15,750 bases of DNA, from the NCBI GenBank assembly GCA_017440445.1, contig JAFSHE010000011.1:1-15750 (forward strand), read 5' to 3'. Position 1 is the stretch's first letter; each line of letters begins with the position of its first letter. Source of the DNA: Oscillospiraceae bacterium. Lineage in GTDB: Bacteria > Bacillota_A > Clostridia > Oscillospirales > Ruminococcaceae. The notes beneath the pieces are model-generated. The model was not told the DNA's origin. It was given only the letters and a program-made list of their open reading frames with translations, and did not search any database. Below are positions 1,277 through 13,104 of the stretch, piece by piece. Made by a program: the position numbers and the translations under genes.

Positions 1277-2221
1277 TTAAAGCTCGATCTTGCCGTACAG
1301 TGTAGCATTTCTCTCTGCGTCAACTGTCTCTTTGGAGAACTCGCCTGCATTAGCGTTCTCGTCAGGCTCGTAGACCTTGCGCTTGTACTCACGCTCAAAG
1401 CTTGTGGAGAAGCCGCTGGACTGCTTGTAGTTCCTTGTAGCACGTGCGTCGCCGCTGCTTCTCTCGCCACGTCTGCGGCGGTTGTCGAACTTGGGCTTGT
1501 CTGCGTAGATAACGACCTTTCTGTAAGGCTCAACTCCTGTAGAGTGAGAGGATACTCCCTCTATTTCAGCTACACAGCTGTGGATTATTCTGCGCTCGTA
1601 GGGGTTCATAGGCTCCAGAGCGATCTTTCTGCCCTGCTTGATGACCTTTGCGGATGTTCTCTTTGCAAGAGCTTCGAGAGTTTCTCTGCGCTTGTCACGG
1701 TAGCCGTTGCAGTCAACTGCTATGCGGCAGTAGTTTTCCTCGGTGCGGTTGCTTGCGAGAATGGTCAGGTACTGAAGGCTGTCAAGCGTTTCGCCGCGTC
1801 TGCCGATAACGACGCCAAGCTTCTCACCGGAGATATCCAGAACAACGTTGCCGTCCTTCTTTATTGCGTTTATCTCGAAGTTCTCAAGACCCAGTGCGTG
1901 GAGTACGTCTGTCAGGTACTGCTTTGCTGCCTTTACCTTTGCGCTGCTCTCGATGTCGAAATCATCAGGAAGCTCACCTGCGCCCTCTGTTTCGTCCTCG
2001 AACACTTCGGGAGCTGCTTCCTCAGCTATCTCGGCAGCGGGCTGCTCCTCAACGGGAGCCTCGTACATAGCCTTTACTCTAGCCTCGCCCTTCATTCCGA
2101 AAAGACCTTTGCGGGGCTGCTCAAGTATCTCAAAATCGATCTCATCTACGGATACACCGAACTCCTGCGCTGCAAGAGCTTTGGCATCGTCCAGAGTTTT
2201 AGCTGTAAATTCTTTTACCAC
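1277..2221 (-). CDS. jag: Jag/KhpB (SpoIIIJ-associated) RNA-binding protein
   Basis: A 314-residue protein with the full Jag order. Jag-N domain is residues 1-52 ('FGVSVDEIDFEILEQPRKGLFG'). An acidic Glu/Ala/Pro linker spans 53-93. The KH domain spans about 94-172 with GxxG loop G140-R-R-G143. The R3H domain (about 173-240) has RxxxH at R210-H214. A polar Arg/Ser-rich tail fills 245-314. Jag proteins bind RNA and in other Firmicutes affect cell elongation; the gene commonly follows yidC, as here (24-base gap). Start is GTG at 2221 with AAGGGGAAG just upstream. The linker and tail make it longer than the roughly 208-residue B. subtilis protein. It is the last gene of the rpmH operon; the expected next gene mnmE is absent. 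Confidence 0.93.
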   Translation of the reverse strand: MVKEFTAKTLDDAKALAAQEFGVSVDEIDFEILEQPRKGLFGMKGEARVKAMYEAPVEEQPAAEIAEEAAPEVFEDETEGAGELPDDFDIESSAKVKAAKQYLTDVLHALGLENFEINAIKKDGNVVLDISGEKLGVVIGRRGETLDSLQYLTILASNRTEENYCRIAVDCNGYRDKRRETLEALAKRTSAKVIKQGRKIALEPMNPYERRIIHSCVAEIEGVSSHSTGVEPYRKVVIYADKPKFDNRRRRGERSSGDARATRNYKQSSGFSTSFEREYKRKVYEPDENANAGEFSKETVDAERNATLYGKIEL

Positions 2222-2245
2222 AATTCTTCCCCTTTCGTCGGATCG

Positions 2246-3841
2246 TTACTTGTCGTCATCGTCTTCGATATATTCCTCGCCGTATTTGATCGCATCCTGA
2301 CGGCGTGCTTCGGCAAGCTTTCTGCGGTTTATTTCCTTCTGAGTAAGCTTCTCACCGTTTACCTCCACAATGGAGTTGTCATTGTCGGTATCACGTACTC
2401 TGCTCGCTCTTGCATTAATGACCTTCATTCTCTCGGCATACTCTGCCTCGGCCTGCGCTCTCATTTTTTCGGGGCTGAATACCTTTGCAAGCAGCAGTGT
2501 CTGTGCAATACCGAACACATAGCTTACTGTCCAGTAGAAGCCCGCACCTGCGGGAACGTTAAGCACGAAGAACAGTGAGAATACAGGCATGATATACATT
2601 GTAAGCTTCATGCCGTTGCCCATTCCGCCGGGATTGTTCTTTTCCATCTGCTTGTTGGAGATGAACGCCTGTGCCAGTGACAGCAGCAGTGCTACAACGA
2701 TAAGCATTATCATCGGGAAGCTCAGATGCTGGCTGGGAACGCGAGATAGCTTTATACCGAGGAAATCAAGGTTTCCATAAAGCTCCTCTACTGCTTCGGA
2801 GTTCTGCACGGAATAGAACTGCTTGTAGGCTACCTTTGTGCCGTCTGCGTATTCCTTTTCTGTACCGAATGCCTCGATAGCGTAAAGCTCTCTCTGGAGA
2901 GATGTGGAGGCAACAAAGCTTGCGTTGCCGTTAGCGTCCATCTTATAGTAACCGTACTGCACCTGAAGTGTATTCAGTGCCTCTCTGGTCTTTTCACCGA
3001 ATGCATGCTCGGACTTATAGCCTGCCTTTGCAGCGTCATCGGAAAGTTTCTTAAGCTCGTCCTTTTCGCTGGGGATGGTGTTTCCTGCTGCGTCCTTGCG
3101 TGTATAGTCGGTAATGATGAACATATCAGATGTGTGAAGCTGAACTTCCTTACCGTTTCCGCCGTTGTTAGCCTTTACAGTCTCGTACTCATCCTTAAGG
3201 ACATCAGCGAATACGCTTTCTATTACCTTTATGGAGTCAGCAGAAACAGTAGCCCATACAGTTTCATCGTATGCTGTTTCGCCTGCTTCGAGATGGGTGT
3301 TGTAGTAGTTCAGTATCTTTGCTGCATCTGCAATTATCTCATTGTGCTTTGTAAGAGCGTCGCCCTTAAGCTCAACTGCGTTGTTGTTGTGCTCGTTTAC
3401 GAATATCTCAGCAGCCTTGACATTGTAGGATTCCTCGATCATCACGGGGATCTCCGTATCAGCGTTAAGGTGAGTGATGTGTGTAAGCGGTCTGTAAACT
3501 ACGTCCAGCACGCCGAACAGTATCAGGAATGTGAGTATCATGGAGCCGCAGCCGCCCATGGGATTGTAGCCCTGCTGCTGAAGCTTTGCAAGCTCCTCCT
3601 GCTGCTTTTCCTGGTTGTTCCTGTACTTCTGCTGTATCTCCCTTACCTTGGGAGCGAAAATAGCGGATTTTGCGGTGTTCTTCTGCTGTCTTATGGAAAG
3701 AGGAAGCTGTATCAGCCTTATAATAAAGGTGAACAGGATTATCGCAACTCCGACGTTCTTGATGCCGATCTCATAGATAAAATAGAGTACGTATCCAAGC
3801 GGCGTACCTATCAGACTATACAGAAAGTTTATTGCGTCCAC
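2246..3841 (-). CDS. yidC: YidC/Oxa1-family membrane protein insertase with large TM2-TM3 insertion
   Basis: YidC inserts proteins into the cytoplasmic membrane. The core is clear: TM1 at about 29-48 with the groove arginine R42 ('IILFTFIIRLIQLPL'), a charged cytoplasmic hairpin at 50-92, TM2 at 94-117, TM3 from about 372-393, and TM4/TM5 at 411-455. The C-terminal tail (456-531) is highly charged and ends in an acidic stretch. Gram-positive YidC is usually 260-290 residues; this has 531 because residues about 121-355 are inserted in the extracellular TM2-TM3 loop. No lipobox cysteine is seen at the N-terminus. Start is GTG at 3841 with GAAAGGA four bases upstream. It is the fourth gene of the rpmH operon, 113 bases after yidD. 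Confidence 0.93.
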   Translation of the reverse strand: MDAINFLYSLIGTPLGYVLYFIYEIGIKNVGVAIILFTFIIRLIQLPLSIRQQKNTAKSAIFAPKVREIQQKYRNNQEKQQEELAKLQQQGYNPMGGCGSMILTFLILFGVLDVVYRPLTHITHLNADTEIPVMIEESYNVKAAEIFVNEHNNNAVELKGDALTKHNEIIADAAKILNYYNTHLEAGETAYDETVWATVSADSIKVIESVFADVLKDEYETVKANNGGNGKEVQLHTSDMFIITDYTRKDAAGNTIPSEKDELKKLSDDAAKAGYKSEHAFGEKTREALNTLQVQYGYYKMDANGNASFVASTSLQRELYAIEAFGTEKEYADGTKVAYKQFYSVQNSEAVEELYGNLDFLGIKLSRVPSQHLSFPMIMLIVVALLLSLAQAFISNKQMEKNNPGGMGNGMKLTMYIMPVFSLFFVLNVPAGAGFYWTVSYVFGIAQTLLLAKVFSPEKMRAQAEAEYAERMKVINARASRVRDTDNDNSIVEVNGEKLTQKEINRRKLAEARRQDAIKYGEEYIEDDDDK

Positions 3842-3954
3842 GTCCTTTCATTGTTCTGCGGCGCTCAGCGCCATTATCTCTTGTTTGTTGGTAGCCCTTT
3901 TTTAGCTACGTTTTTTCTCATATATAAATTAATGCGGGAGTCCCGCAGTTATGT
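3842..3954 (-). other. yidD-yidC spacer with three small hairpins
   Basis: On the minus strand this spacer holds TGCGGG-ACT-CCCGCA (3933-3947) just after the yidD stop, a GTAGC/GCTAC stem with an A-rich loop, and GGCGC-TGA-GCGCC (3860-3872) about 18 bases before the yidC start. Two very short frames of 14 and 8 codons are joined by an overlapping TAATG, but neither has a visible ribosome binding site. The first hairpin may attenuate transcription after yidD; the last may affect yidC translation. No function is demonstrated. Confidence 0.45.
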
Positions 3955-4239
3955 TCATATCTGATTTGAGCTGCCCTCATCATCATCGGGCAGTATGTGG
4001 TGTACCCTGTCGGGCCTGAAGCAGAAGCGCTCGGGGATGGGATCGTATCCGCCCCTTCCGTAAGGGTTGCAGCGGATCAACCTCCATAACGTCAAATAAC
4101 CGCCCTTAACCGCACCAAAACGCCGAATAGCGAGGGTCGCATACTCGGAACAGCTTGGATAATAGCGGCAGCACGGCGGTAAGATCTTTGACAGCGTCAG
4201 TCTGTATAGCTTGATTATTCCCAAAAAAAGATATTTCAT
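3955..4239 (-). CDS. yidD: YidD membrane protein insertion efficiency factor
   Basis: A 94-residue protein with the family signature: an amphipathic N-terminal helix ('MKYLFLGIIKLYRLTLSKIL'), then the cysteine motif 'PPCCRYYPSCSEYA' (C23, C24, C30), then 'GGYLTLWRLIRCNPYGRGGYDPIPE'. YidD is an inner-membrane-associated protein thought to assist YidC-dependent insertion. Its ATG overlaps the rnpA stop in an ATGA (4236-4239), so the two are translationally coupled. Size and order are typical. The acidic tail 'LPDDDEGSSNQI' is the variable end of the family. Confidence 0.95.
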   Translation of the reverse strand: MKYLFLGIIKLYRLTLSKILPPCCRYYPSCSEYATLAIRRFGAVKGGYLTLWRLIRCNPYGRGGYDPIPERFCFRPDRVHHILPDDDEGSSNQI

Positions 4240-4589
4240 GACAGCTTTGACAGAATAGTTTTCTTCATCAGAGATAAGATCTGCGTCGATTTCTGCGACG
4301 GAGTCTTTCCTCGGGCTACGAAAACAAAATCGTAACGCTTTTGTGTTTTTTCTTTCAAAATCGGCTCAAAAAGGCGGAAGGCTTCCCTTATTACCCGCCT
4401 TGCCCGATTTCGCTTGACCGCATTTCCGACCTTTTTGCCTGTCACTATGCCGAGGCGATTGGCGCTGCCGCGCCTCTCCTTAACATAGCAGACAAAGGCG
4501 TAGGTCACGATGCTTTCTCCTCTTTTGAAAAGAAAGCTGAAATCACGGTTCTTTTTGATCACAATGTACCGTTTTCTGAACTCAGACAT
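4236..4589 (-). CDS. rnpA: Ribonuclease P protein component
   Basis: A 117-residue basic protein of normal length. It binds the RNase P RNA and helps process the 5' leader of pre-tRNAs. The family motif lies at about residues 52-72: 'KKVGNAVKRNRARRVIREAF', including the conserved R-N-R. The N-terminus 'VIKKNRDFSFLFKRG' and 'RLGIVTGKKVG' also fit. It starts 21 bases after the rpmH stop and overlaps yidD by four bases. The ATG at 4589 was chosen because the protein begins at the family's usual position. Confidence 0.96.
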   Translation of the reverse strand: MSEFRKRYIVIKKNRDFSFLFKRGESIVTYAFVCYVKERRGSANRLGIVTGKKVGNAVKRNRARRVIREAFRLFEPILKEKTQKRYDFVFVARGKTPSQKSTQILSLMKKTILSKLS

Positions 4590-5836: not shown

Positions 5837-6541
5837 ATGGTTTCTGAAAATCTTTTAAGCGCATCCAAGCTGACCGACGCTCTCGCAGTATTCGGTGACA
5901 GCTTCAACGTATCGGAGCAGTTTGCTAATCTTTCTGTTTCTACTATTATAATAACACTGCTGACAGCTACCCTGTGCGGAGCTATCATCTATCTTGTATA
6001 CCGTTTCTTTTACAGAGGCGTGGTGTACAGCGATAATTTCAATATCCTGCTGGTGCTTACCACTATCGTTACATCCTTTATCATCATGACCATCAGCGCA
6101 AACGTTGTACTGTCCCTCGGTATGGTCGGTGCGCTTTCTATCGTGCGTTTCCGTGCGGCGGTCAAGGACCCGCTGGATATCGGCTTCCTGTTCTGGGGAA
6201 TTGCTGCGGGCATCACCGCAGGCGCTCAGCTTTACTGGGTAGCTATCATCGGAACAGTTGTCATCGCAGTTATCTACATACTCCTCACCATCTTCAAGAA
6301 GGAGCGCAAGAGCTACCTGCTTATCGTTCGCTACACCGCTGAGAACGAGGTAAACGTAAACGGCATCCTCGGTGCAATAAAGTACAAGCTGAAGAACAAG
6401 ACCCAGACAGGAAACAGTATAGAGCTGACTGTTGAGGTTAAAATAAAGAACAACGACACAAGCTATATCAGCCGCTTCAATGCAGTTGAGGGCGTGGAGA
6501 GCGTTACACTTCTCGAATACAGCGGAGAGTATATGAATTGA
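5837..6541 (+). CDS. DUF4956 membrane protein
   Basis: A 234-residue protein with the hallmark DUF4956 stretch 'SLGMVGALSIVRFRAAVKDP' followed by 'LDIGFLFWGIAAGI'. About four membrane segments are visible: residues 35-57, 71-92, the 98-130 region, and 131-152. A soluble C-terminal domain (about 155-234) follows, with beta-alpha alternation. The start is supported by GGAGG at 5824-5828. The biochemical role of DUF4956 is unknown; these genes often sit next to VTC-domain genes, as here, so a membrane partner, channel or acceptor for the VTC enzyme is plausible inference. Its stop is 29 bases before the ankyrin start and no promoter lies between, so co-transcription is likely. Confidence 0.85.
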   Translation: MVSENLLSASKLTDALAVFGDSFNVSEQFANLSVSTIIITLLTATLCGAIIYLVYRFFYRGVVYSDNFNILLVLTTIVTSFIIMTISANVVLSLGMVGALSIVRFRAAVKDPLDIGFLFWGIAAGITAGAQLYWVAIIGTVVIAVIYILLTIFKKERKSYLLIVRYTAENEVNVNGILGAIKYKLKNKTQTGNSIELTVEVKIKNNDTSYISRFNAVEGVESVTLLEYSGEYMN

Positions 6542-8901: not shown

Positions 8902-10509
8902 ATGACTATACTAAAAAAGATAACAGCTTTGCTGCTGGCTGCCTCTATTTCGATAGGAGGAGCTGTAACAGCCTTTGCGGATGAGAGCGGCACAGCCGCA
9001 GGTACCGAAACATCTATCCTGACCGAGGCAATGCCTGAAACATCGCTTGCTGATACGCAGACAAAGCCAGAAACATCCATCATCCCACCTGACAAGCCCG
9101 AAACGGCTGTTACGGACGGAGAAAACGAGGACGCCAAGCCCGAAAGCGGAGTTGACCTCTCCGATATCAACTATACTCCGATAGACCTTACAGGCTATGA
9201 GCGTTGGAATGGCAAGACAAAGCTTAAAGCTGATACAAATTACTACATAAGCGGCAAGATGACCATATCCAAAAGCTTTACTGTGCCTGTCGGCTCTAAG
9301 CTTGTGGTTACTCCGGGGTCGGATATCGGCATCTCCAAGAGCGTTATCGCTCAGATAAAGGGAAGTATGGTGATAGAGCCGAAATCCACCGTTACATACT
9401 CCTGTACTTTCTCTGTTGCAAAGGGCGCAGGTTTTGAAAACTACGGTACATTAAAGGCTACCCTCAGTTCTGTTACCAGAATATCGGGCGAGTATATCAT
9501 CCGTCACGGCTCCACTGCGGCATACTCGGGAACAGTGAACATCTACAAAGACGGTATGTACCTCAATTACGGAGGAACAACTCTCACAAAAAGCGCAAGG
9601 ATGCTGGTGACAGGTGATTTCCAGAACCCTGTGGGCGGTCGCCTGACCCTCAGAGGCTATCTCGCTGTGACCATCAGCGGACGTGCAAGCTTTGCAGGCT
9701 CCCTGTATCTATACGGTGAGCTTATCAACAGCGGTGTAATGACGCTTGAGAAGAACATCAGATACTACAAGACAAAAGGCTCCAGATTTGCTATCTCCAA
9801 GAGCAGCCGACTTATCGACTACCGCTATTACAGACCCAGTTACAGCGAGGAGGAAGCCACCGACACGGGCAGAAAGGGAATAGACGTTTCTTATGCGCAG
9901 GGTGCTATCGACTGGGGCAAGGTAAAGATGGCAGGTATTGAGTTTGCTATCCTGCGTGCATCGAGAGGTTATATCAGCGAGGCTAAGCCCATGATGCAGG
10001 ACGTGACCTTTGAGTACAATGTTACTGAGGCGACTGCATACGGCATTGATGTGGGAGTATATCACTATCTGTATGCATCCACTGTCGAGGAGGCAAGACA
10101 GGAGGCTAAGTTCTTCCTTGAAACTATAAAGCCCTACAAGATAACATACCCTGTGGTGCTTGACGTGGAGGAGCAGTATCAGGCTGACTTCGGCAAGGAG
10201 AAGATAACCGAGATGTGCAAGGCATTCCTTGACGAGATAAAGGCAGCAGGCTACTATCCCATGATATACGCAAACAAGGCATGGCTCACAAACTACCTTG
10301 ATATGAGCAAGCTCTCCGAGTACGATGTGTGGCTGGCACAGTGGAACACCGTTCCCACCTACAAGGGCGAGTTCGGAATGTGGCAGTACAGCAGTAAGGG
10401 TATTGTTTCGGGAATTGACGGATACGTTGACCTCAATCTCTCCTACAAGAACTATGCAAGCATAATCGAGAAGGGCGGGTACAATCACCTGAAGGACGAA
10501 ACTGTATAA
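8902..10509 (+). CDS. Secreted GH25 lysozyme (N-acetylmuramidase) with beta-repeat N-terminal region
   Basis: A 535-residue exported protein. Residues 1-26 are a signal peptide ending AFA before DES. Residues 27-90 are a low-complexity Thr/Pro/Glu linker with repeated 'PETS/PETA' units. Residues about 100-315 show repeating short beta strands with 'NYGTL', 'NYGGTTL' and 'NSGVMTL', like a beta-solenoid or surface-binding region. The GH25 domain runs from about 325: 'KGIDVSYAQGAIDWGKVK' with D328, then 'VVLDVEE' with the catalytic-site acids D421 and E423, then 'DVWLAQWN' and 'GMWQYSSKG'. It should cleave the glycan backbone of peptidoglycan, for remodelling or attack on competitors. The ATG at 8902 is the start because the signal peptide begins there (GGAG 8890-8893); an upstream in-frame TTG is unlikely. 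It is monocistronic. Confidence 0.92.
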   Translation: MTILKKITALLLAASISIGGAVTAFADESGTAAGTETSILTEAMPETSLADTQTKPETSIIPPDKPETAVTDGENEDAKPESGVDLSDINYTPIDLTGYERWNGKTKLKADTNYYISGKMTISKSFTVPVGSKLVVTPGSDIGISKSVIAQIKGSMVIEPKSTVTYSCTFSVAKGAGFENYGTLKATLSSVTRISGEYIIRHGSTAAYSGTVNIYKDGMYLNYGGTTLTKSARMLVTGDFQNPVGGRLTLRGYLAVTISGRASFAGSLYLYGELINSGVMTLEKNIRYYKTKGSRFAISKSSRLIDYRYYRPSYSEEEATDTGRKGIDVSYAQGAIDWGKVKMAGIEFAILRASRGYISEAKPMMQDVTFEYNVTEATAYGIDVGVYHYLYASTVEEARQEAKFFLETIKPYKITYPVVLDVEEQYQADFGKEKITEMCKAFLDEIKAAGYYPMIYANKAWLTNYLDMSKLSEYDVWLAQWNTVPTYKGEFGMWQYSSKGIVSGIDGYVDLNLSYKNYASIIEKGGYNHLKDETV

Positions 10510-10510
10510 A

Positions 10511-10547
10511 AAACAGCGGAGGGAACTGATGTTCCTTCCGCTTTTTT
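10511..10547 (+). terminator. Intrinsic terminator after the GH25 gene
   Basis: A 12-bp stem (10515-10526 with 10531-10542, one G-T pair, TGAT loop) merges into TTTTTT at 10542-10547, just after the stop codon. Confidence 0.93.
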
Positions 10548-10558
10548 ACAGAAAGATC

Positions 10559-10716
10559 CGCCGCAGGGAAATAGGAGGAAACCTGCGGCGTAGAGAAATG
10601 TGACAGGAGAACAGGGGTCTGTATTCTCCTCGGTGAATTTATGTCAAAACCGTTTGTTCGGTCGTTATCTATATGATACTCTGTGTTTTTGAATTGTCGG
10701 TTATGGTTATGCGACA
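10559..10716. other. Gene-free stretch with stable hairpins, possible small RNA
   Basis: Between the GH25 terminator and the CIRCE element there is no open frame. CGCCGCAGG (10559-10567) pairs with CCTGCGGCG (10582-10590), leaving a 14-base loop that contains AGGAGG. AGGAGAA/TTCTCCT, with inner CAG/CTG, forms a second hairpin around 10603-10630. ACCG/CGGT and TGTCG/CGACA form weaker ones near 10650 and 10695-10716. No convincing promoter starts here on either strand; a minus-strand TTGACA (10647-10642) lacks a good -10. It could be a structured RNA or a decayed remnant. Confidence 0.35.
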
Positions 10717-10730
10717 GAACAGTGAAAATT

Positions 10731-10757
10731 TTAGCACTCTTTTGTGATGAGTGCTAA
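10731..10757. promoter_or_regulatory. CIRCE element (HrcA operator)
   Basis: TTAGCACTC (10731-10739), nine bases, GAGTGCTAA (10749-10757). This matches the consensus CIRCE inverted repeat at all 18 arm positions with the canonical 9-base spacer. CIRCE binds the repressor HrcA and normally controls groESL and dnaK operons. No chaperone gene is in the window; the next plus-strand genes are the aminotransferase and trpS. Confidence 0.9.
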
Positions 10758-10771
10758 TTTTGCTTTTTCGC

Positions 10772-10800
10772 TTTACAACAGGGATTTATTGTGATATAAT
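10772..10800 (+). promoter_or_regulatory. Promoter of the aminotransferase-trpS operon
   Basis: TTTACA (10772-10777), 17-base spacer, TATAAT (10795-10800) with a TG extended -10 (10792-10793). The CIRCE element ends 14 bases before the -35. The leader of about 85 bases holds a GGCAGA/TCTGCC hairpin (10815-10833) and an AGGCTG/CAGCCT pairing. No T-box consensus was found. Confidence 0.8.
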
Positions 10801-10891: not shown

Positions 10892-12079
10892 ATGCTTAAA
10901 CCGTTTTCCGACAGAGTTTCGGGCTTACAGCCCTCTGCCATCAGAGAAATATTGAAATTCACCGCTGACCCCACTGTTATCAGCTTTGCTGCGGGAAATC
11001 CCGCTCCCGAAGCGTTCCCTGTTGATGTTATCTCCAGGATATCCGCTGATATCTTCGCTGAGGAGCCTATCAATGCGCTCCAGTACTCCATCACCGAGGG
11101 TTATACTCCTCTGCGTGACTGGCTGAAGGCAGACCTTGCTGCTAAGGGCATGTTCCGTGAAAATGACAATGTTATCATTACCTCCGGTGCACAGCAGGCT
11201 ATTGAAACTGTTGCCAAGATACTCTGCAACGAGGGCGATGTTATAATCTGCGAGGACCCTGCGTTCATCGGCTCGCTGAATGCTTTCCGTTCTTACGGCG
11301 TAAAGCTTGTAGGAGTTCCCATGGACGATGACGGAATGATAATGGAGCAGCTTGACGCAGCTCTTTCTGCAAATCCCACCGCAAAGTTCATCTATACAAT
11401 CCCGAATTTCCAGAACCCCACAGGCAAGACAACCACTCTCGAGCGCAGAAAGCAGATGCTGGAGCTTGCAAAGAAGCATGGCGTATACATCGTGGAGGAC
11501 AACCCCTACGGCGCACTGCGTTTCGCAGGCGAGGATGTTCCCTGCATCAAGGAGCTTGACAAGGATGGCTATGTGCTGTACTGCGGTAGCTTTTCAAAGG
11601 TGCTTGCTCCCGGACTGCGTGTAGGTTATCTCTGTGGCGACAGCGAGGTGCTGGCAAAGGCAGTAGTGGGACTTCAGACAAGCACCGTACATACCAATAT
11701 CTGGGCGCAGATGATAACATACCGCTTCTTAAAGGAAGTGGATTTCGATGCACACCTTGCAAAGCTGCGTACCATCTATAAGCACAAGTGCGAGCTGATG
11801 CTGAACGGTCTGAAGGCAGAGCTTCCCGAATTTATAAAGCTTACAAGCCCCGAGGGCGGTCTGTTTATCTGGGCTACTCTCCCCGAGAAGTACGACATGA
11901 ATGCATTCTGCACTGAAACAGTAAAGCGCAAGGTTGCGCTTGTTCCCGGTAATGCGTTCTCCGCTGATGAAAGCGCAGTTTCTCACTGCTTCCGTATGAA
12001 CTTCTCCACTCCTACCGATGAGCAGATAGAAAAGGGCGTGAAGATACTCGGTCAGGCAGCAAGAGAGCTTTTAAAGTAA
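10892..12079 (+). CDS. PLP-dependent class I/II aminotransferase
   Basis: A 395-residue fold-type I aminotransferase without the N-terminal DNA-binding domain of MocR proteins. N-terminus 'VISFAAGNPAPEAFP' (29-43), 'SGAQQAIE' cofactor-phosphate region (98-105), 'N175-P-T-G178', 'VEDNPYG' with D203 contacting the pyridine ring, and 'GSFSK' with PLP-binding K236 are present; 'FRMNFS' near the C-terminus carries the substrate-carboxylate arginine. The pattern resembles 2-aminoadipate/aromatic transaminases (LysN/KAT II-like). The exact amino acid is unclear; cotranscription with trpS, 26 bases downstream, makes an aromatic substrate a reasonable guess only. Start is supported by AAAAGGAG at 10876-10883. 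It is first gene behind the promoter next to the CIRCE element. Confidence 0.92.
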   Translation: MLKPFSDRVSGLQPSAIREILKFTADPTVISFAAGNPAPEAFPVDVISRISADIFAEEPINALQYSITEGYTPLRDWLKADLAAKGMFRENDNVIITSGAQQAIETVAKILCNEGDVIICEDPAFIGSLNAFRSYGVKLVGVPMDDDGMIMEQLDAALSANPTAKFIYTIPNFQNPTGKTTTLERRKQMLELAKKHGVYIVEDNPYGALRFAGEDVPCIKELDKDGYVLYCGSFSKVLAPGLRVGYLCGDSEVLAKAVVGLQTSTVHTNIWAQMITYRFLKEVDFDAHLAKLRTIYKHKCELMLNGLKAELPEFIKLTSPEGGLFIWATLPEKYDMNAFCTETVKRKVALVPGNAFSADESAVSHCFRMNFSTPTDEQIEKGVKILGQAARELLK

Positions 12080-12105: not shown

Positions 12106-13104
12106 ATGGAAGAACAGAAGAAAAATATGCTGAGTCTTATTCAGCCGACAAATACTCCGCATCTCGGCAACTATCTCGGTGCTATGCAGAACTGGGTAAG
12201 GCTTCAGAATGACTATAACTGCTTTTTCGGTATAGCAGACCTGCACTCCATTACGGTAAGACAGGACCCTGTAAAGCTCCGTGCGCAGATAAAGGAGAGC
12301 TATGCACTGCTTATCGCAGCAGGCCTTGACCCCGAAAAGAGCACTCTCTTTGTGCAGGGACACAACTGCCAGCACGCTGAACTGAGCTGGATACTCTCCT
12401 GCTACACCCAGTTTGGTGAGCTTTCAAGAATGACACAGTTCAAGGATAAATCGGCAAAGTACGCTGATAATATCAATGCAGGACTTTTCACCTATCCTGT
12501 ACTTATGGCTGCGGATATCCTGCTGTATCAGGCTGACCTTGTTCCCGTTGGCGCAGATCAGAAACAGCATCTGGAGCTTGCTCGTAATATCGCACAGCGT
12601 TTCAATGGAGTTTACGGAGATACCTTCACTATGCCCGAGCCGTACATCACAAAGACCACCGCAAAGGTGATGTCGCTGCAGGAGCCGACAAAGAAGATGT
12701 CCAAATCCGACGAAAATCCCAATGCCTCTGTATGGGTGCTTGATGACAAGGATACTATCATCCGTAAGTTCAAGAGAGCCGTTACAGACAGCGAGGCTGA
12801 GGTATGCGCAAGAGAGGGTAAGGATGGTATAATCAACCTTATGTCTATCTATTCTGCGGTCGCAGGCAAGAGCTTCGAGGAGATAGAGGCAGAGTTCAGC
12901 GGCAAGGGCTACGGCGACTTCAAACTTGCAGTCGGAGAGGCTACTGCGGATATGCTGGCTCCCATGCAGGCAGAGTTCAAGCGTATCTCGGCTGACAAGG
13001 CATATCTCGAAACCTGCATGAAGCAGGGCGCAGAGAAGGCTTACAGGGCTACAAGAAAGACCCTCCAGAAGGTGCATAAGAAGGTAGGATTTGTGGTACT
13101 GTAA
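12106..13104 (+). CDS. trpS: Tryptophanyl-tRNA synthetase
   Basis: A 332-residue class Ic synthetase that charges tRNA-Trp, with normal bacterial length. The HIGH-type motif is 'TPHLGNYLGA' (17-26), where the more usual start is TG-x-LHLGN. 'FFGIADLHSIT' (40-50), 'MAADILLYQADLVPVGADQKQH' split around 134-155, and K197-M-S-K-S201 are clear. It starts with AAAGGA ahead of the ATG and follows the aminotransferase by 26 bases with no promoter between, so both share a transcript. No T-box leader was found upstream of the operon. Confidence 0.96.
   Translation: MEEQKKNMLSLIQPTNTPHLGNYLGAMQNWVRLQNDYNCFFGIADLHSITVRQDPVKLRAQIKESYALLIAAGLDPEKSTLFVQGHNCQHAELSWILSCYTQFGELSRMTQFKDKSAKYADNINAGLFTYPVLMAADILLYQADLVPVGADQKQHLELARNIAQRFNGVYGDTFTMPEPYITKTTAKVMSLQEPTKKMSKSDENPNASVWVLDDKDTIIRKFKRAVTDSEAEVCAREGKDGIINLMSIYSAVAGKSFEEIEAEFSGKGYGDFKLAVGEATADMLAPMQAEFKRISADKAYLETCMKQGAEKAYRATRKTLQKVHKKVGFVVL

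Follow-up and report, generated by a model that had tools for sequence, protein, structure and literature searches.

A perfect CIRCE operator beside a predicted hsp20-kind promoter and small RNA in an Oscillospiraceae bacterium

The window analysed here is a stretch of 15,750 nucleotides from an Oscillospiraceae bacterium. Its plus strand carries a gene for a PLP aminotransferase (10892-12079, Pfam Aminotran_1_2), for short called aspC below, followed by trpS (12106-13104, Pfam tRNA-synt_1b). A promoter scan placed their promoter, TTTACA-N17-TATAAT, at 10772-10800 on the same strand, with 11 of 12 matches to the consensus. Upstream of this promoter, with 14 nt between the repeat and the -35 box, a motif scan found TTAGCACTC-N9-GAGTGCTAA at 10731-10757 with no mismatch, a perfect CIRCE and thus a predicted HrcA operator. 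CIRCE is the operator of HrcA in class I heat-shock operons (groESL, hrcA-grpE-dnaK). In the usual description HrcA, which is the oldest-known heat-shock repressor of Gram-positive bacteria, represses chaperone operons from a site on or just after their promoters. The initial annotation had described the perfect repeat, the promoter and its distance, the two downstream genes and the absence of a nearby chaperone gene, and all of this was borne out. The window contains 54 ORFs of at least 60 aa, many of them overlapping or antisense frames, and no chaperone gene was found among the 19 ORFs scanned with Pfam. Elsewhere in the window, rnpA, yidD and yidC-like and jag-like genes lie on the minus strand (1277-4589) in their usual, ordinary order.

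The repeat is the sole match to CIRCE in the window at three or fewer mismatches. Shuffled windows contained a mean of 0.01 such matches (a match was present in 3 of 200 shuffles), and the number of perfect copies expected from base composition is 2.5e-7 in the window and 3.8e-5 in 2.4 Mb. Shuffles and expectation together rule out a chance match as the origin of this CIRCE.

As the nearest annotated genes are aspC and trpS, we compared 80 loci with a related aminotransferase, taking up to 400 nt upstream of each gene; 79 of them had at least 140 nt of upstream DNA and one was too short. No CIRCE with fewer than five mismatches was present upstream of the aminotransferase gene in any of the 79 relatives: the best match had five mismatches (L067), and all others had at least six. 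The aspC-trpS promoter itself recurs in many relatives without a CIRCE, so that the operator is not among the conserved features of the aspC promoter, and a CIRCE common to aspC promoters is rejected. In a separate comparison of aspC promoters within the genus, the aspC start was not placed in 12 of 42 loci, which have the opposite orientation. HrcA might nevertheless act on the aspC-trpS promoter of the window, alone or together with the RNA described below, from 14 bp upstream of the -35 box, for instance by obstructing the polymerase alpha subunit; the operon would then belong to the heat-shock regulon. The proximity of the genes and the strength of the promoter speak for such control, but we consider it unlikely, because the promoter is widespread without CIRCE. 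One distant relative (L047) has an aminotransferase-trpS pair followed directly by a CIRCE (6318-6344) and hrcA, which is probably a coincidence of gene order.

The use of CIRCE was surveyed in 43 genomes of the same genus at up to one mismatch. All 43 contain CIRCE (142 sites), and 40 have an HrcA match, including the nearest relative (G001). The lack of an HrcA match in the other three (G014, G020 and G022), where CIRCE is present, is probably due to incomplete assemblies. After sites with identical core and flank were collapsed, 131 distinct sites remained besides that of the window: 38 at hrcA, 36 at groES, 38 at htpG, 16 at hsp20 and three unassigned. At 111 of the 112 sites of hrcA, groESL and htpG, CIRCE comes just after a -35/-10 pair and begins 4-11 nt beyond the -10 box; the one remaining site is cut by a contig end. 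This agrees with the canonical geometry, in which the start site is closely followed by CIRCE, as given in the excerpts consulted of PMC6212727 and also covered in those of PMC2662882 and PMC3207917. Two of the three unassigned sites have the canonical promoter and are located at contig ends. At the third (L112), a CIRCE with one mismatch occupies the canonical position (TTGACA-N17-TATAAT-4 nt-CIRCE) and precedes the gene for a 401-aa CD-NTase (2610-4031, minus strand; PADLOC Cyclase E 5e-90, Pfam SMODS 1.6e-10), so that a CBASS-like defence gene possibly belongs to the HrcA regulon there. In four loci (L099, L101, L103 and L125), hrcA is preceded by two CIRCE copies that overlap at a distance of 23 bp, and the second of them has two mismatches.

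Against this background the position of the window CIRCE upstream of a -35 box is unusual, as had been suggested from the sequence. No promoter with a -10 box just before the CIRCE was found on either strand, and none of the 131 genus sites was seen upstream of a -35 box in the way of the window CIRCE, which further argues against control of aspC-trpS. On the minus strand, the repeat itself contributes to a promoter-like match, TTAGCA-N18-TGC-TAAAAT, which has an extended -10 and 9 of 12 promoter matches and could be an HrcA-controlled start of a longer RNA. However, this match consists mostly of CIRCE sequence, so that it would arise at any CIRCE with AAT after it, and AAT or AAA does follow CIRCE at several canonical genus sites. 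A start at this position is therefore very improbable.

The 16 hsp20 sites of the genus fall into two layouts. Seven sites have one mismatch and carry the TTGACA -35 box of the promoter inside the right half of CIRCE (L113, L120, L124, L130, L131, L218 and L221). The other nine have a perfect CIRCE upstream of the promoter; an ungapped alignment places the -10 box at 50 nt in all nine, and TTTCACA-like boxes lie between CIRCE and -10 in 11- or 22-bp phase, with a different box arrangement in three sites (S45, S72 and S126). Five hsp20 loci of the genus that have no CIRCE were examined and lack the boxes too, showing that boxes and CIRCE go together at hsp20 in this genus. In 396 genomes of the family, we searched for a CIRCE half-site followed by an exact TTTCACA within 8-20 nt. 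This pattern occurred in 30 genomes, a count that is too low since an exact TTTCACA was required, compared to one for a reversed-pattern control. At a gap of 12 nt (23 loci) or 13 nt (one locus), hsp20 lies downstream in 24 of 24 loci, with a perfect CIRCE in 20 of them, whereas none of the six loci with other gaps (9, 16, 16, 17, 17 and 18) has hsp20 within 900 nt. In most hsp20 promoters CIRCE is directly followed by a TTTTCA element.

The boxes also occur outside this context. TTTCACA-N15-TTTCACA-N9-TATAAT at up to three mismatches was found 153 times in the 43 genus genomes, compared to 13 times for the reversed pattern, and some of these sites lie near ORFs for small basic proteins (L345, L365, L368 and L369). 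They may represent a wider regulon of a box-binding regulator. An 11/22-bp phase is associated with OmpR/PhoB-type binding, and our guess is that the regulator is of this type. CssR sites may contain TTTTCACA, which our literature search did not confirm. CtsR recognises heptads of the form AGTCAAA/GGTCAAA 3 nt apart, and the boxes were rejected as CtsR sites on comparison with this consensus.

The minus strand of the window appears to carry a promoter of this hsp20 kind. Read from 10757 downwards, CIRCE is followed after AA by a TTTTCA element (10723-10728), by TGTCGCA (box 1, 10710-10716) and, after 15 nt, by ATTCAAA (box 2, 10688-10694), both of them degenerate forms of TTTCACA in 22-bp phase, and after another 9 nt by a predicted -10 element, TATCAT (10673-10678). 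The latter lies 52 nt from CIRCE, compared to 50 nt in the hsp20 promoters. The five nearest relatives (L001, L002, L003, L004 and L009) show more distinct boxes in this position upstream of aspC, and the window boxes are the most degenerate of the six. None of the five retains a remnant of CIRCE; the window is alone among the six promoters in carrying the operator. Conservation in close relatives, which the initial annotation had proposed as a check, thus fails for the operator and holds for the promoter and the RNA that it would drive, both of which are present in all six.

The likeness to hsp20 promoters was scored with matrices. In a matrix of 28 hsp20 promoters (23 from the family and five from the genus), with CIRCE left out of the scored part, the six RNA promoters rank 1-6 of 256,554 positions. 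The window promoter is sixth with 11.2 bits, the best other position has 7.98 bits, and the training sites themselves score from 30.0 to 46.9 bits. A matrix of the nine genus sites places the relatives' promoters at ranks 1, 2, 3, 7 and 9 of 256,268 positions and that of the window at rank 21, second in its own locus. We also trained a reverse matrix on the RNA promoters of the five relatives and scored the 28 hsp20 loci and the window. Of 205,380 positions, the seven with the highest scores comprise six promoters of hsp20 genes and that of the window, at rank 6 with 17.3 bits; the eighth position has 7.3 bits. A profile HMM search of the promoter gave weak E-values of 0.25 to 7.8 (L004 0.25, window 0.64, L002 2.3), with background matches of similar E-value next in the ranking. 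On these comparisons, an hsp20-type CIRCE promoter on the minus strand is the favoured description of the site, and its recurrence at hsp20 stands against control of aspC-trpS.

In place of hsp20, the promoter is followed by a predicted small RNA of approximately 160 nt (10508-10666, minus strand), whose start was derived from the -10 element and whose end from the T-run after a terminator stem (10508-10542). Neither hsp20 nor any other minus-strand gene lies between promoter and terminator in the window, and the six RNAs have no ORF in common. The terminator stem also has a plus-strand T-run, for the gene that ends at 10509. By eye, minus-strand T-runs are clear in the window, L003 and L004, weak in L001 and L009 and not visible in L002. 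The minus-strand RNA, terminator included, folds with -53.2 kcal/mol (z -5.02), compared to a weaker z of -1.25 for the plus strand, the stretches compared having different ends. An RNA on the plus strand was rejected because of this weaker fold and because no promoter is in place for it. The structured stretch that had been noted at 10559-10716 is real, although its extent is revised to about 10666 to 10508 and it is assigned to the minus strand on the evidence of promoter and conservation.

At the centre of the RNA lies a conserved hairpin (10559-10590, minus strand) with a 9-bp stem and the loop TTTCCTCCTATTTC, which is complementary to Shine-Dalgarno sequences. The window and four of the relatives share the loop (T)TTTCCTCCTATTT, L003 has a variant of it, and the stems differ widely in sequence across the six RNAs. 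As alignments put the hairpin arms out of register, the arms were compared by script: 48 of 48 inner stem pairs form within species, compared to a mean of 4.0 of 8 with arms taken from different species. The hairpin structure is thus conserved through compensatory changes. Among the 80 loci, such a hairpin precedes aspC in five, and these are exactly the five relatives with the promoter. The exact 13-nt loop occurs 17 times in the 43 genus genomes. Four occurrences belong to this RNA (G001, G002, G004 and G009). Each of the remaining 13 is complementary to a Shine-Dalgarno-like stretch with ATG after it and has a stem of no more than six pairs. This makes the loop a ready-made antisense of ribosome-binding sites of the genus. 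The words TCCTCC and CCTCCT, which mark this kind of hairpin, were absent from all 23 hsp20 leaders. No Rfam family reached its gathering score in the window, and weak matches of the RNA were taken as chance; among these, LhrC (RF00616) was rejected at 22 bits and E 0.51, compared to a gathering score of 110.

In a tree of aspC proteins, the window and the five RNA carriers form one clade (support 0.992), within which the window groups with L001 (1.000), an Oscillospiraceae MAG that is 95% identical in the aminotransferase and the nearest relative compared. On this identity, the source of the window is most likely an uncultured member of the Oscillospiraceae. On the far side of the RNA, the window has a GH25 gene, as does L004 by similarity, and other sequence is found there in L001, L002, L003 and L009. 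As this left neighbour varies, the RNA travels with the aspC promoter and not with the neighbour. Pfam Hsp20 was found in 21 of the 43 genus genomes and in none of the five RNA carriers (G001-G004 and G009), an absence that is suggestive only, since the carriers are MAGs and form one clade. An hsp20 gene beside aspC as the source of the site was rejected: no match to the aspC, trpS or GH25 proteins of the window was found in the 28 hsp20 loci.

The CIRCE was either kept from an hsp20 ancestor, with at least two losses in the relatives, or newly acquired in the lineage of the window. By parsimony, the tree taken alone speaks for a single gain. Retention is favoured by the near-identical spacing and by the improbability that 18 exact positions arise de novo at the right place. 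The window has a perfect CIRCE and decayed boxes and its relatives have the reverse, as if HrcA control and box control could replace each other. It could also be that the CIRCE is a leftover without present function, the operator having stayed undecayed after the RNA took over an hsp20 promoter or the promoter lost its gene. The hsp20-like promoter without hsp20 is consistent with this, as is the operator's loss or original absence in the five relatives, where Hsp20 was not detected. However, all 18 operator positions are intact beside boxes that have drifted, which is unexpected for a neutral relic, and we regard this account as quite improbable.

Taken as a reading of the sequence, the CIRCE is probably a functional HrcA operator of a divergent, minus-strand promoter of the hsp20 kind (-10 at 10678-10673) that drives the small RNA, with HrcA silencing it and heat releasing it. 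The promoter would combine CIRCE, TTTCACA-type boxes in 11/22-bp phase and a -10 about 50 nt from CIRCE, as in the hsp20 promoters of this bacterial family. At normal temperature, HrcA on CIRCE would keep it off by obstructing either RNA polymerase or the regulator that binds the boxes; as the HrcA site adjoins the boxes, exclusion of that regulator, or cooperation with it, is likely. Heat or misfolded protein would titrate GroEL, disabling HrcA, and the RNA would be made. Its C-rich loop would then pair with the Shine-Dalgarno sequences of target mRNAs and lower their translation. Control of aspC-trpS by CIRCE is less likely than this divergent arrangement, for which the computational support is good. 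The initial annotation had offered either that operon or an unannotated transcript in the structured stretch; the transcript is favoured and the operon weaker. It had recognised the operator and its placement, while the strand and the connection to hsp20 were absent from it.

The locus resembles several known systems in part. It shares with the class I operons groESL and hrcA-grpE-dnaK the operator in its perfect 9-9-9 form, but in those operons CIRCE closely follows the promoter, whereas the window has it 52 nt before the -10, with no chaperone gene following. The hsp20 promoters of the family share CIRCE, the TTTTCA element, the boxes at 22 bp and the -10 at 50-52 nt; unlike these, which have hsp20 downstream in 24 of 24 family loci, the window has a small RNA, degenerate boxes and a CIRCE 2 nt further off. 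Listeria LhrC, together with RsaE-type small RNAs with C-rich loops, is like the predicted RNA in having a stem-loop with a C-rich loop complementary to Shine-Dalgarno sequences. LhrC is without sequence kinship to it, as the Rfam scores indicate, and is not known to be HrcA-controlled. The part of PMC4132741 consulted describes LisR control, UCCC motifs and Shine-Dalgarno binding for LhrC, whose promoter resembles that of the predicted RNA in its candidate regulator box. At the Lactobacillus plantarum hsp1 promoter, an HrcA site is likewise joined with that of another regulator (excerpt of PMC3842655); there the second regulator is CtsR, unlike in the window. HrcA and HspR bind cooperatively at co-regulated promoters in Campylobacter, where HrcA covers the start site, in contrast to its distance from the -10 in the window (excerpt of PMC7464140), and dual control is also covered in an excerpt of PMC9696931. 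The portions of the CIRCE, HrcA and small RNA literature that were covered contained no report of an HrcA-controlled small RNA.

Tentatively, an hsp20 promoter may have been captured in this clade by a Shine-Dalgarno-blocking small RNA. With Hsp20 lost, the HrcA circuit would answer heat by lowering the translation of selected mRNAs and not by making a holdase, and the window species would keep HrcA control where its sisters have only the box-binding regulator; we hold this history to be possible, though short of probable. More generally, the locus suggests a second HrcA promoter architecture, common to it and to hsp20 genes throughout a family of gut Clostridia, as well as a non-coding member of the HrcA regulon, and it links HrcA to translation control of the small-RNA type. 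It also makes an evolutionary question testable, namely whether the acquisition of an RNA allows a promoter to persist once its chaperone gene is gone.
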